Positions 2,963 to 49,300 of a stretch of DNA of 64,000 nucleotides are shown here, piece after piece. This DNA is from Williamsoniiplasma somnilux (GTDB taxonomy: Bacteria > Bacillota_I > Bacilli_A > Mycoplasmatales > Mycoplasmataceae). Each line of letters opens with the position of its first letter. Position 1 is the first letter of the stretch. The position numbers and the translations under genes were made by a program. Location: the NCBI RefSeq assembly GCF_002804005.1, contig NZ_CP024965.1:62001-126000 (forward strand). The letters are read 5' to 3'. The notes beneath the pieces are model-generated. The model searched no databases and had not been told where the DNA came from. It saw only the letters and a program-made list of their open reading frames with translations.

Positions 2963-3502
2963 TTATCACTCGATTCCTTTACGAGCCATTACACCTTGAT
3001 CGAAATAGTGTTTAATTGGTTTTACTTCACTAACTAAATCGGCTATTGCAATTCAAGCATCAGAAATATAATGTCCTGAAATTGCTAGTTCAGTGTGAGG
3101 GTTTTTAGTTTTAATAATTTCTATTAATTCTTCTTCAGTAATAAATTTATTAATAACACAATCTAATAATTCATCACAAATTAATAAATCAATTGTAGAA
3201 TCTTGCAAATCTGCTTTTAATTCTTCAATTCCTAATAACATTTCTTTTTTAAAAACTTCACGTTCTTGATCATTCATTTCTCAAATAAATTTTTGGCTTG
3301 AAGAATAAAAAGATTTAACTGTAAAATTTGGGTCTTGATGTTTCGTGAAATATGTTAACTCACCAGTGATGCGATTTTTTAAAAAGCGCAAATATTTAAC
3401 TTTTCAATCATTACCCAATGCTCGAATCGCCATTCCGTTTAAAGCCGATGTTTTACCTTTACCAGTTCCGTAATAAATATGAATATAACCTTCTTTTTTC
3501 AT
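2963..3502 (-). CDS. cobA: Cob(I)alamin/corrinoid adenosyltransferase (CobA/BtuR/CobO family)
   Basis: The 179-residue protein begins MKKEGYIHIYYGTGKGKTSA, with the P-loop GTGKGKTS, followed by ALNGMAIRALGNDWKVK and RFLKN...GE, typical of CobA/BtuR. Later come LLICDELLDCVINKF and ELAISGH, the Walker-B-like and C-terminal family blocks. The enzyme transfers the 5'-deoxyadenosyl group of ATP to cob(I)alamin, giving adenosylcobalamin. Two TGA codons are Trp. The start at 3502 has a G-rich Shine-Dalgarno. I see no corrin biosynthesis genes, so the role is cofactor activation after uptake. Its obvious client is the B12-dependent reductase at 33373-35844. The family assignment is firm; the link to NrdJ is inference. 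Confidence 0.88.
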
Positions 3503-3667
3503 TGTTACCCCCGTCATCTTATTTAGATTTTAATCAAAAAATAGATAAAAAACTTTAATGTCTTAACAATAGTTTCAAAAAACTGTAACATTATTGTTTA
3601 TTAACCTAAATACCACTTTAGAAGCAGTGAATATTTGCTATTATTTTATTGTGAGGAAATAAAATAA

Positions 3668-4726
3668 ATGAGTATGATAAAACATAACGAAGAAAATAAC
3701 GAAGAAATCAATATTTTTGGATTAAGTGCTAGTCAGGATTTAGCAAACGAGGTCTGCGAAATTTTAAAAATCAAACCAAAACAAGTGAAAACAATTCGTT
3801 TTATGGATGGAGAAATTTTAGTCGAATCATTAGACAGTGTGCGCGGAAGAGAAATTTATGTAATTCAATCAACAACTCAACCAGTTAATGAAAATTTAAT
3901 GGAATTATTAATTGCAATTGATGCTTTCAAACGTGGATCGGCTTCTAAAATTAATGTTGTGATCCCTTATTTTGGATATGCACGTCAAGATCGTAAAGCA
4001 AAAGGTCGTCAACCAATCACTGCTAAGTTAGTTGCGGATTTAATTACTAAAGCAGGAGCTGATAGAGTAATTACTATTGACATCCATTCGCAACAATCGA
4101 TGGGGTTCTTTGATATTCCAATGGATAACTTTCAAACATCGCAAACTTTAGCTGAAGAAATTATTAAAACTATTATGGAGAAAAAAATTGATTACAAAAA
4201 CTGCATTTTAGTTTCTCCTGATCACGGTGGTTTAACTAGAGTTCATAAAGTAGATTCTTATACAGGTGCTATGACTAATGGAATTGCAGTTATTGCTAAA
4301 AGACGTCCAGAACCAAATAAAGCCGAAGTAGAATTTGTGCTTGGAGATATAAAAGGAAAAACCTGCTTTATTATTGATGACATGATTGATAGTGGAGGAA
4401 CCATCATTAATGCTGCAAAAGCTTTAAAAGAAAATGGAGCTACTGATGTTTACATTTTTGCTTGTCATGGATTATTTAACGGACCAGCAAAACAAAGAAT
4501 GGAAGAAGCAATCAAAAACAATTGAGTTAAACAAGTTGTTGTTACTAACACTATTGAAATTCCTGAAAGCAAAAAATTTGAAGGTCTAAAAATTATTTCA
4601 ATTGCCCACTTACTGGCAGACATGATTGATGCTTCTGTTCATAATTGTTCACTAACTGATGTTTACAATGATTTTAAAGTTAATATTTTAAATCAAGTTG
4701 AAAAATTTTTAAAAGAAAATAAATAA
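3668..4726 (+). CDS. prs: Ribose-phosphate pyrophosphokinase
   Basis: The 352-residue protein makes PRPP from ribose 5-phosphate and ATP, feeding purine and pyrimidine salvage. Seen in it are IRFMDGEI, the GYARQDRKAKGRQPITAK block, VVSPDHGG-type VSPDHGGLTR, and the PRPP-binding loop FIIDDMIDSGGTI. Length and order match the family. One TGA (Trp) lies near residue 286. GAGGAAAT precedes the ATG at 3668. The stop overlaps the pth start by one base (TAATG), so the two are translationally coupled. Confidence 0.96.
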
Positions 4727-5298
4727 TGAAATTAATAGTAGGTTTAGGCAATCCCGGTAAAGAGTATGCAACAACTCGTCATAACGCTGGGTGGATTGCT
4801 ATTGACATGTTATTAGATAAATATGGTTTTACTCAACATAAAGAAGAGCATCAAGCAGACATTTATTTTACACAAATTAATGGTGAAAAAGTTTTGTTAG
4901 CTAAACCATTAACTTTTATGAATAATTCAGGAGTTGCTACAAGAGCACTTATGGAATATTATAAAATCAATAAAAATGATTTAATTATTATTCACGATGA
5001 TAAGGATTTTCCAATTGGTAAAATTCAATTTAAATTTCAAGGATCAGCTGCGGGACATAATGGAATTAAAAGTGAAATTCAATATTTAAATGGAGAAGAT
5101 TTTAAAAGGTTGCGCATTGGAATTGGCGTACCTTTAGAAAATTGAACGATTGTAGATTGGGTTTTATCAAAAATGTCTAAAATTGAAATTGAAAACTTAA
5201 AGCAAGCATTTGCTTTGTCATTAGACTTTATTGATGATTGAACTAAGGGTGAAAGCTTTAATAAAATCATGAGCAAATATAATATTTTATACAAGTAA
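4726..5298 (+). CDS. pth: Peptidyl-tRNA hydrolase
   Basis: The 190-residue protein releases tRNA from peptidyl-tRNAs that drop off ribosomes. It opens with GLGNPGKEYATTRHNAGW, which includes the catalytic His, and has the HDDKDFPIG and GSAAGHNGIKS blocks of Pth. TGA codons at 5143 and later are Trp. It overlaps prs by one base and is followed by a strong terminator, closing a two-gene operon. Confidence 0.96.
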
Positions 5299-17216: not shown

Positions 17217-17245
17217 GTTTATAATTAATTAGTAATTAAATAAAG

Positions 17246-17311
17246 AAAACTTATATAATCCTCCATATTGGGGAGGAGTCTCTACCTAACACCTTATGTT
17301 AGATTATGGGT
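17246..17311 (+). promoter_or_regulatory. Purine riboswitch aptamer, adenine-type, upstream of purA
   Basis: The fold matches the purine class: P1 AACTTATA with TATGGGTT (with G-U pairs), P2 TCCTCC/GGAGGA with loop ATATTGG, the junction GTCTCTACC, P3 CTAACA/TGTTAG, and closing GATTATG. The specificity position 74 is T in GAT-TATG, the adenine-sensing base in the add riboswitch; guanine sensors have C. This suits adenylosuccinate synthetase, whose product leads to AMP. The fold is seen; ligand choice is inference from position 74. Confidence 0.85.
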
Positions 17312-17316
17312 TGTTT

Positions 17317-17366
17317 AACTAGCATTAGTTACGAGTTTTCGTTGTTTTTAAATGCTAGTTTTTTAT
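17317..17366 (+). terminator. Riboswitch-linked attenuator upstream of purA
   Basis: AACTAGCATT (17317-17326) pairs with AATGCTAGTT (17351-17360), followed by TTTTATTT. The 24-base loop includes a small ACGA/TCGT hairpin. Its place between aptamer and purA marks it as the expression platform terminator. Confidence 0.8.
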
Positions 17367-21000: not shown

Positions 21001-21051
21001 AAAAACTCCCTATCTATTTTAGACAGAGAGTACACAAAATCACTAAAAATC

Positions 21052-21130
21052 ACTAATTGAACTTCCTACGCTAGTATTAACTAGATCAGGTTCTAAGAGT
21101 ATTTCTCAAGCTTTCGCTACCTCTGTCAAT
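21052..21130 (-). promoter_or_regulatory. TPP (THI-element) riboswitch upstream of thiT
   Basis: On the minus strand the TPP core reads GAACCTGATC, then TAGTTAATACTAGCGTAGGAAG, matching the conserved THI 3' half in order. A TTGAGAAATAC block stands for the 5' CUGAGA motif, and P1 is AATTGA/TCAATT. It lies in the thiT leader. Its 5' GACAGAG has a perfect complement CTCTGTC downstream (plus-strand 21022-21028), a possible switching arm. Confidence 0.93.
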
Positions 21131-21239
21131 TTTTTATAAAATCATGATTATTTTAGCACTTTTATCTCAAAATGAACACTTTAGAGTGAAAAGACATCTT
21201 TTTATGAAATAATGCTATTTATATTAAGTTATAATAATT

Positions 21240-33222: not shown

Positions 33223-33336
33223 AGAAGCTTATATAGGATAGTAAAATGGACTATCGACTCCACCCCTAGACCAAAAGTAGGGACTATAAGTTACCATAAT
33301 TATCAAACCGTATTTTGTGCGGTTTATAAGCTTCTT
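33223..33336 (+). promoter_or_regulatory. 2'-deoxyguanosine-type (dG-I) riboswitch upstream of nrdJ
   Basis: From 33228 to 33290 the sequence follows the M. florum dG aptamer almost base for base: CTTATA...P1, GGATAG-TAAAATGG-ACTATC P2, the altered junction GACTCCACC in place of GTTTCTACC, the short P3 CCCTA...TAGGG, and GACTATAAG. C is at position 74. P1 strand AGAAGCTTATA (33223-33233) is perfectly complementary to TATAAGCTTCT (33325-33335), a likely switching arm. A separate stem (AAACCGTA/TGCGGTTT, about 33305-33325) lies between. The M. florum aptamer is known to bind 2'-deoxyguanosine; binding here is inferred. Confidence 0.9.
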
Positions 33337-33372
33337 CAATGAGTAATTAAGATTAAAGGGGCACATATAATT

Positions 33373-35844
33373 ATGTATAATGAAAAAATAATTAGCAATT
33401 TAAATGAAGACATCAAAACTCACTTCAAAAATATTTTTCCAATTGAGAAAAATTATAAATTGCATTTTGAAGGTGTCTCAAGAATGGTTATGTTAGACCG
33501 TTATTCTCAAAAAGACGAAACTTTAAAAACTTTAAAAGTTGGAGACATTGTCTTGACAATAATTAAAGAAGATCCAAACTATCCTTCACGTGGAATTGGG
33601 CGTGTTATTGAAATCAGAAATGATGGTAAATGTTTAATTGATGTTGAAGACCAATATTTAAATAATATTTCAGATGATTTAAAAGCAGATAAAAATGTTC
33701 CAAATTTAATTTTGAAAAATAAACAAACTCTTTCAAAACCAATAGAACTTTATTATGAACAAATTGCTAAACGTGTAGGTTCTCATTTGGGAACAGGTGA
33801 AAGCAATGAGATAATTAATGCTTTTGTTCATGAACTTATGGAATTAAACTTTGTGCCAGCAGGTCGTGTTTTGTATGGAGCTGGTTCAAATAAAGAAGTT
33901 ACTTACTTTAATTGTTACGTAATGCCAATGCCAAAAGATTCACGTGAAGGAATTGCAAAACATCGTGAAGAAGCTGCCGAAATTATGTCAAGAGGAGGAG
34001 GGGTTGGAACCAACGGTTCAACTTTAAGACCAAAAGGATCTCCGGCTCTAAGTGTTGGGGGTTCATCATCAGGAGCTGTTTCTTGATTAAATGACCTTTC
34101 GCAACTAACACACTTGATTGAACAAGGTGGTTCAAGACGTGGAGCGCAAATGATCATGTTAGCCGATTGACACCCTGATGTAATTGAATTTATTATTTCG
34201 AAAATGCAAAATGTTAATTCATTACAGTTCATTAAACAAAACTTTAGATCAGAATTAATTTTAAATGAAGTGAATAAAAAAATTACTTTTAAACCTTTTG
34301 ATGCTAATGAAAGAAATGTTTATGAAAATATTATTCAACATAAACAAAACTTCGATGAGAAATTTATTAAAGACATTGAGAAAAAATTATATTCTGGAGG
34401 AACTTATGAAGTAGTTGATTCAAAATTTTTAACTGGGGCCAATATTTCGATTGCAATTTCTGATAAATTTATGGAAGCAGTTGAAAATAACTTAGAGTGA
34501 GAATTTATGTTTCCAGATAATTTAAATTTCACTCCAGAGCAAAAGAAATTTTATGATGAAAAGTGACATGAAATTGGAAATGTCTTTGAATGAGAAGCGT
34601 TAGGATATCCTGTTAAAAAACATTCTAAAATTTCAGCTCGTGAGTTATATAAATTAATTAATTTTTGTGCAACTTACTCAGCTGAACCAGGCATTTTCTT
34701 CTTGGACAGAGCTAACAAAATGACAAATGCTCAAGGTTATGGACAAAAAGTTGTATGTACAAACCCTTGTGGTGAACAACCATTGGCGCCTTATTCAGTA
34801 TGTAATTTAGGAGCTATCAATCTTTCTAATTTTGTAAACAAATCAACAAAAGAAATTTTGTTTAATAAACTTAAAGAAACTGTTAAGACAGCGGTAAGAA
34901 TGCAAGATAATATTATTGATGCGACTCCATATTTCCTAGAACAAAATAAAAAACAAGCATTAGGAGAAAGAAGAATCGGATTAGGTGTTATGGGATTACA
35001 TGACATGCTGATTTGAGCTGGTGTTAAATACGGAAGTCAAGAAGGCAATAAAATTGTTGATGAAGTATTTAAAACTATTACAGTAACCGCTTATGAAACA
35101 TCAATTGCTTTGGCAAAAGAAAAAGGTGTATTCCCATTCTTGGTTGATCGCCAAAAATTTATTCAATCAGGATTTATGAAATCAATGCCAAAACATATTC
35201 AAGATGGTATTGTAGAGTTTGGTTTAAGAAATTCCCATCTAATTACAGTGGCCCCAACAGGTTCAACGGGAACAATGGTTGGATGCTCAACAGGATTAGA
35301 ACCATACTTCGCATTCACTTACTTTAGAAGTGGAAGATTAGGTAAATTTATGGAAGTAAAAGCACCAATTGTTGAGCAATGATTAAATTACAATCCAGAA
35401 TTCATTAATAAACAATTGCCAAATATGTTTGTTAATGCCATGTCGTTAAGCCCAACAGAGCATGCTGATGTTCAATGTATTATTCAAAGATGAGTTGATT
35501 CATCAATTTCAAAAACTGTTAATGCTCCAAAAGGTTATACAGTTTCTCAAGTTGAAGAAATTTATTCATACCTGTATAAAAACGGAGCAAAAGGTGGAAC
35601 AGTTTATGTTGACGGTTCCCGTGATACTCAAGTCCTTTCTTTAGAAAAAGAAGAAAACTTATTTGAAGAAGAATTTACTAAAAAAGGAGTAGGTTTACAA
35701 GAACACACTATTTCCGAAACTCCAAAAAATATCGGAAGTGAAATTGGTGATACTTGTCCTGTTTGTGAATTAGGAACTCTAATTGATTCAGGTGGTTGTG
35801 TTACTTGCAACAATTGCAATGCCCAAGTTAAATGTGGTTTATAA
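33373..35844 (+). CDS. nrdJ: Adenosylcobalamin-dependent (class II) ribonucleotide reductase
   Basis: The 823-residue enzyme reduces ribonucleotides without oxygen or an NrdF radical subunit. The active-site loop NPCGEQPLAPYSVCNLGAI is near residue 463, with YFNCYVMP near 178 as the partner Cys, VAPTGSTGTM, and LGVMGLHDMLIW. The C-terminus has CPVCELG...GCVTCNNC...KCGL, the zinc/redox tail of class II enzymes. These features and the lack of class I residues separate it from NrdE. AAAGGGG precedes ATG 33373 by about 11 bases. Two genes downstream look like its cofactor uptake. Many TGA codons are Trp. Most Mollicutes are known to use class Ib NrdEFI instead. Confidence 0.94.
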
Positions 35845-35865: not shown

Positions 35866-35897
35866 TAAAAAGACTTCTTTAGAGCGAAGTCTTTTTT
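35866..35897 (+). terminator. Terminator after nrdJ
   Basis: A stem of about 11 bases (AAAAGACTTC/GAAGTCTTTT) with a loop of eight is followed by T. The next gene begins 15 bases on, so some read-through may feed it. Confidence 0.8.
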
Positions 35898-36517: not shown

Positions 36518-37111
36518 ATGAGAAAGTCGTTATTAATTACCTTAAAAATAACTTTTATTGGCGTTTATGCCGCTTTAGTTTACGCATTACAAGTAGCGTT
36601 AGCATCAATTCCTAATGTTGAATTAGTGACATTGATGTTATCAATTGCTGGATTATGTATGCATCGCTATATGTCAATGACTATAGCTTTAATTTTTGTT
36701 CTTTTAGAAGCTTTAACTTATGGTTTTGGTGACTGAGTTATTTTGTATATTATTGTATGGCCACTACTTACTTTGAGTTTTTCTCTCTTTAAAAAATATG
36801 CCGAATACGCTTGAGTTTTGGTGATTGCAGTTAACACTATTTTCGGCTTTTTATTTGGAGCTATTGATGCTGGAATTAAATATTTATTGTATGATCAATC
36901 AACGATGATTGCTTATTGAATTAAAGGCTTGGTCTTTGATTTAATTCATGGTGTAGGAAACTTTATGATTGCACTATTATGCTTTAAACCAGTTTATGCT
37001 GTGGTTTCGCGTTATTGTAAAAAATACATTAATGCACCCTTGTTCAAAATTAAAAATTTCGATTTCAAGATTATGGGTTGTGGATTCTGTGTTTCCAAAT
37101 TTTATATTTAA
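36518..37111 (+). CDS. ECF transporter S component (probable cobalamin, CbrT-like)
   Basis: The 197-residue protein has about six hydrophobic segments and the S-component pattern: YALQVALASIPNVELVTLML, FGDWVILYIIVWPLL, then helices around GFLFGAIDAGIKYLL and GLVFDLIHGVGNF. The IPNVELVTL stretch is typical of the vitamin S-component group that includes the cobalamin protein CbrT. Context (nrdJ, DUF4430-like protein) supports B12, not proven by sequence. It would use the shared EcfAT module encoded elsewhere. A strong terminator follows. Confidence 0.72.
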
Positions 37112-49185: not shown

Positions 49186-49300
49186 ACTTGTATAAACCAG
49201 CATATTGGGCTGGCGTCTCTACACTAACACCCATGTTAGTTCTATAAGTGAAAATGCTTTTAAAAAGTTTTTTTGCTATAGTTTTAATTATATACAAGTT
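49186..49300 (+). promoter_or_regulatory. Purine riboswitch, guanine-type, upstream of guaA
   Basis: The aptamer (49186-49249) has P1 ACTTGTA/TATAAGT, P2 CCAGC/GCTGG with loop ATATTGG, junction GTCTCTAC, P3 ACTAAC/GTTAGT, then T-C-TAT. The specificity base is C at 49242, the guanine-sensing state. P1 strand AACTTGTATA (49185-49194) has a perfect complement TATACAAGTT at 49291-49300, next to the GAGAAAGG ribosome site. This matches control of GMP synthesis; ligand is inferred. Confidence 0.85.

Follow-up and report, generated by a model that had tools for sequence, protein, structure and literature searches.

The leader of nrdJ in Williamsoniiplasma somnilux probably carries a 2'-deoxyguanosine-type riboswitch with the purine three-way-junction fold, which would act as a translational OFF switch. 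Four things, judged from sequence, give good support for a dG-type riboswitch before a class II ribonucleotide reductase: the covariance score, the pair of bases C51 and C74, the association with genes within and between genomes, and a ribosome site that looks switchable. What the RNA binds, which way it acts in vivo and the physiological signal, a surplus of deoxynucleotides, are inferred. The window, that is, the whole stretch of 64,000 nucleotides that was analysed, covers 62001-126000 of a single-contig genome of 868,413 bases (G000) and has a GC content of 29.1%; coordinates refer to it unless given as genome positions.

The aptamer in the nrdJ leader

33227-33291 (+): dG-type purine-fold aptamer with a three-way junction (RF01510, 52.1 bits; missed by RF00167; covariation)
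33227-33233/33285-33291 (+): P1 of the aptamer
33237-33242/33250-33255 (+): P2 of the aptamer
33264-33268/33278-33282 (+): P3 of the aptamer
33256-33264 (+): junction J2/3, GACTCCACC, 9 nt (alignment of 19 C51 aptamers)
33234, 33261, 33262 and 33284 (+): equivalents of pocket positions U22, C51, A52 and C74 (alignment)

With cmscan, the Rfam 2dG-I model (RF01510) gives this element 52.1 bits, a narrow 1 bit over its gathering score of 51; the E-values, 4e-8 for the 64-kb window and 1.3e-10 for the whole genome, indicate that the match is not chance. The Purine model (RF00167) matches three other places in the same genome and does not list this one even at E<=10. The first-pass annotation had proposed a comparison of just these two models, and the outcome that it named as a refutation, the score of an ordinary guanine sensor, was not obtained. 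The fold itself is supported by the alignment of 19 C51 aptamers: 91% of cells are paired and two-sided changes occur in 13 of 21 pairs, a covariation reached by none of 500 shuffles and with no slid version comparable. The covarying pairs include U22-A52 against C22-G52.

A dG-type aptamer with the junction GACTCCACC is thus where the first-pass annotation had put it. The further claim, that the leader is nearly the same as the Mesoplasma florum aptamer, holds for the fold, C51 and C74 and fails for positions 22 and 52, the pocket being U22-C51-A52-C74 as against C-C-G-C. In the M. florum group the leaders of nrdF reach 81-89 bits and have GACCCCGCC in the junction and C22-G52. P3, which had been called unlike that of guanine sensors, does not discriminate: it has five pairs and a 9-nt loop, unlike M. 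florum, whose L3 has 4 nt. The junction-proximal pair of P1 is A-U, and J3/1 is AC only. Both C51 and C74, the counterparts of C58 and C80 in 2'-dG-I, are present, at 33261 and 33284. Because U22-A52 replaces the C-G of the M. florum type, the aptamer is best called a variant of 2'-dG-I and not a typical member; its bases combine the 2'-dG-II first shell with a scaffold like that of 2'-dG-I.

Pocket bases and downstream genes

One way to ask what such a pocket might bind is to set its bases against the genes that it precedes. Every RF01510 match in the 60 genomes of the family, 113 in all, was retrieved together with its downstream genes, and the bases at the positions equivalent to U22, U51, A52 and C74 in the guanine riboswitch were read; genes were named from sequence motifs, except NrdJ and NrnA. 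Position 51 is C in all 14 leaders of nrdF (11 of 11), nrdJ (the present one) and nrnA (2 of 2). It is U in every leader of guaA (12 of 12), hpt (5 of 5), NCS2 permease (16 of 16) and purA (1 of 1), with C51 in none of these 34. Fisher's test gives p = 2e-12 for the association with gene type, the leaders coming from related genomes and kinship being uncorrected. The same contrast of C51 with U51 is seen inside single genomes: G000, where nrdJ has C51 and guaA has U51, and likewise G010, G055 and G056. Lipoprotein genes have leaders of both kinds.

Positions 22 and 52 behave otherwise. They covary without exception (63 U-A, 45 C-G), and in the M. florum group C-G is found on nrdF and guaA alike, the guaA aptamers having U51; C-G at 22/52 therefore marks lineage and not ligand. 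The U22/A52 form of the nrdJ aptamer is common to relatives outside the M. florum group, and with C51 it stands before nrdF in G053, G055 and G056, before nrnA and before nrdJ. In the search of related nrd leaders for the same element, also proposed at first pass, every nrdF aptamer (11 of 11) carries C51, and among 60 genomes only this one has the aptamer on nrdJ.

Several other aptamers bear on how the models read this family. The guaA leader at 49186-49249 (+), with U51 and C74, scores 51.2 bits in RF01510 and 53 bits in RF00167, and is most likely, from its bases, a guanine aptamer. RF01510 is over-inclusive in this family, and since a U51 leader scores nearly the same as that of nrdJ, the score alone leaves the ligand unfixed. 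Two near-identical purine aptamers, 17231-17326 (+) and L006 1501-1595 (genome 513666-513760, -), form a natural specificity pair: positions 73-74 are AU in the purA leader (adenine type) and CC in that of an NCS2-type permease gene (guanine type). The best 2dG-I match of the genome (L001 1501-1563, genome 25060-25122; 86.5 bits) has M. florum-like C22/G52 and lies before a lipoprotein gene, directly after a transporter permease-like gene. Four genomes, G001, G002, G052 and G054, have no nrdF and no match to a reductase large subunit, yet have C51 aptamers, mostly on lipoprotein genes; this suggests that deoxynucleoside uptake is under dG control there. The nrnA aptamers, before a DHH oligoribonuclease/PAP phosphatase gene, come from two genera (L004 1501-1564, genome 193805-193868; L018 1501-1564, in G052).

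What the pocket may sense

The choice of nucleoside over nucleobase depends critically on C58/C51; the first shell consists of C31/C58/C80 in 2'-dG-I and of U22/C51/C74 in 2'-dG-II (PMC8872408). The combination U22/C51/A52/C74 on a 2dG-I-like scaffold equals none of the characterised pockets, which leaves some room for a sensor of the broader G-nucleoside pool, taking guanosine and 2'-dG alike, or of another G-nucleoside derivative. 2'-dG-III makes little distinction between guanosine and 2'-dG (PMC9295807), and the U22/A52 C51 form precedes nrnA as well as reductase genes. We consider this rather unlikely: the same form lies before nrdF in three genomes, and for a reductase feedback by a deoxynucleoside is what one would naturally expect; moreover 2'-dG-II, with the same first shell, is a 2'-dG sensor (PMC8872408).

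A second perspective supposes that the element is an ordinary guanine sensor, caught by the 2dG-I model through scaffold bases common to the lineage. U22, A52, C74 and the 9-nt J2/3 are all guanine-like; positions 22, 49 and 52 match guanine aptamers and not M. florum; and RF01510 matches the U51 guaA leader too. A guanine riboswitch is recognised by U51 together with an RF00167 score above cut-off, however, and here position 51 is C, a base never seen there in the 34 guanine- and adenine-type leaders; RF00167 scores the guaA leader and not that of nrdJ; and the gene downstream is a reductase, as it is for all 11 C51 leaders of nrdF. A guanine sensor is a slightly poorer candidate than the broader nucleoside sensor, and we think it improbable. 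A dG-type sensor is the reading kept below.

A candidate translational switch

33223-33233 (+): 5' strand of P1 with its extension, AGAAGCUUAUA, common to P1 (the part 33227-33233) and to the alternative ligand-free helix
33306-33324 (+): small hairpin between the aptamer and the switching element, stacking on the alternative helix (fold)
33325-33335 (+): UAUAAGCUUCU, pairs instead with the 5' strand of P1 in the ON state (folding)
33331-33336 (+): CUUCUU anti-Shine-Dalgarno, free only once P1 forms, the OFF state (folding)
33355-33361 (+): Shine-Dalgarno AAAGGGG of nrdJ (sequence; folds)

In silico, helices that exclude each other leave the Shine-Dalgarno either open or covered, depending on whether P1 forms. 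The alternative helix of AGAAGCUUAUA with UAUAAGCUUCU has 11 bp, matched by none of 500 shuffles with Watson-Crick pairs only and by 3 of 500 with G-U allowed. Under constrained folding, the mean probability that the Shine-Dalgarno is unpaired is 0.94 without P1 and 0.16 with P1 forced, and among 500 dinucleotide-shuffled spacers none reached this contrast of 0.78. The ligand-free fold is better than the P1 fold by 3.5 kcal/mol, ligand energy excluded, an advantage that suits a switch. The AUG nucleotides of nrdJ are predicted to be paired in both states. Scanning the leader found no intrinsic terminator; the same scan found a clear one in the nrdF leader of G010 (putatively M. florum L1). As inferred from these folds, the likeliest mode is OFF control of translation.

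The scheme would run as follows: without ligand, the P1 5' strand would pair with 33325-33335, leaving P1 open and the ribosome-binding site accessible, and NrdJ would be made; 2'-dG, as a proxy of the dGTP pool, would fill the C51/C74 pocket, and P1 would close; CUUCUU, thus released, would pair with the Shine-Dalgarno, and the class II reductase would no longer be translated.

Could the element instead be a decayed or non-switching copy of the nrnA-leader aptamer, with nrdJ constitutive? It lies before nrdJ in one of four genomes of the genus and is near-identical to the nrnA aptamer of the same genome; compensatory changes separate the two in P2 and P3 (C-G to U-A, G-C to A-U), no pocket base has been lost, and shuffles fall far short of the platform contrast, so that decay seems very improbable. 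The nrnA leader has the same arrangement in weaker form, with a Shine-Dalgarno contrast of 0.31, reached by 6 of 400 shuffles.

NrdJ and its cofactor supply

33373-35844 (+): nrdJ, adenosylcobalamin-dependent class II ribonucleotide reductase, 823 aa, intact, TGA = Trp (NF005991, PF02867)
35866-35897 (+): terminator-like hairpin 3' of nrdJ, an 11-bp stem with a T-run, -11.6 kcal/mol
36518-37111 (+): B12-linked membrane protein, probable component of a cobalamin transporter (homology and gene context only)
2963-3517 (-): CobA-type ATP:corrinoid adenosyltransferase, which makes the cofactor of NrdJ (PF02572, E 5e-48)

The earlier identification of the regulated gene as a class II, adenosylcobalamin enzyme is borne out by family scores of 1259 bits in NF005991 (cut-off 854) and 387 bits in PF02867; the best solved relatives, 1XJK/1XJE, are B12-dependent ribonucleotide reductase. 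The cysteine motifs FNCY/F, NPCGE and SVCNL align in 27 of 27 relatives, and C-terminal cysteine motifs are present. In a tree of these 27 relatives NrdJ groups with three sisters of the genus at a support of 100/100; horizontal gain within the genus, which we considered, finds no support in it.

The membrane protein at 36518-37111 shares 38-54% identity with proteins that relatives encode next to nrdJ or under a cobalamin riboswitch. Its homologue is fused with CobA in one ORF in G048-G050; such fusion ORFs lie just downstream of nrdJ at L042, L044 and L045 (about 3980-5085). CobA scores 131 bits in PRK05986, under the curated cut-off of 185, and its presence tracks nrdJ closely across the 60 genomes; a PduO-type adenosyltransferase is absent in all 60, CobA being found instead.

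Reductase control in the genus and family

The pairing of aptamer and nrdJ occurs in one genome only, one of the four genus members with nrdJ. At permissive thresholds no such aptamer was found on nrdJ in the three genus sisters, and a scan of genome contigs yielded only distant relatives. At 20 nrdJ loci, searched with 1.5 kb flanks, no 2dG, purine or other riboswitch was found except a cobalamin riboswitch in G006. The earlier observation that the nrdJ leader lacks a cobalamin riboswitch extends to the whole of this genome. The window does hold a TPP riboswitch, at 21045-21134 (-), with 64.7 bits.

The genome also has a class I reductase, nrdF/nrdE, at 593-596 kb (nrdF at genome 594834-595631, -), with no recognisable aptamer on nrdF. 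It had been proposed that end-product control was kept although the reductase class had changed. The dG-type element does stand on a class II gene; since the class I genes remain and have no recognisable aptamer, dG control was not simply kept across a change of class.

Relatives are arranged otherwise. Comparing the positions of nrdF with those of riboswitch matches places a cobalamin riboswitch just upstream of nrdF in the sisters G058 and G059, and also in G006, G016, G019, G027, G033, G046 and G051; these species carry both nrdJ and nrdF, nrdJ being a pseudogene in G046. G034, G039, G040 and G041, which are without nrdJ, have weak cobalamin-like matches upstream of nrdF. Neither G000 nor G057 has a cobalamin riboswitch there, so the problem of having two reductases is handled differently within one genus.

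Relation to known riboswitches

With the 2'-dG-I riboswitch of the M. florum nrdF leader the present one shares the fold, the C51 (C58) and C74 (C80) contacts, the GG/CC kissing-loop bases, the control of a ribonucleotide reductase and the presumed OFF direction. It differs in U22-A52 for the C-G pair, in a longer L3, in a class II in place of a class I enzyme and, as modelled, in masking of the ribosome site in place of a terminator. The 2'-dG-II riboswitches of Bacteroidetes share the first-shell U22, C51 and C74; they have a G-C junction-proximal P1 pair and a 2-nt insertion in J3/1 (PMC8872408), whereas this aptamer has neither, and the genes differ. The guanine riboswitch shares the three-way junction, U22, A52 and C74, and is unlike it in having U51 for C51 and in being found by RF00167.

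A B12 riboswitch on a class I operon is known in Streptomyces (nrdABS; PMC4991794). There, as in the sisters' nrdF, one of two reductases is under riboswitch control; the signal is a cofactor acting on the B12-independent enzyme, whereas here a product-type signal would act on the B12-dependent enzyme.

The fold and the C51 pocket are already known. The 2'-dG-I literature that we found concerns one organism and one class I reductase; a search mainly of open-access papers turned up no dG-type aptamer in front of a class II reductase gene or of nrnA, nor one coupled to a translational platform. The nrdJ case would extend the type to a B12-dependent enzyme, to another variant of the pocket and to translational control.

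Implications

The nrdF aptamers of M. florum, those of G055/G056, and the nrdJ and nrnA aptamers form a natural series in which positions 22/52 vary and 51 stays C, so that each base's share in nucleoside selectivity is directly measurable. A broader supposition, which we offer tentatively, is that the U22-C51-A52-C74 aptamers (genera g1, g2, g11 and g12) make up a separate G-deoxynucleoside subclass with its own selectivity, coordinating deoxynucleotide supply through class I or class II reductase, NrnA and lipoproteins of possible nucleoside uptake; reductase control in this lineage would also have shifted between B12 sensing at the class I gene and dG sensing at the class II gene. Close relatives, at any rate, manage two reductases by a cofactor signal or by a product-type signal. 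In this insect-associated mollicute, the modelled switch probably stops the translation of NrdJ when its product is plentiful.
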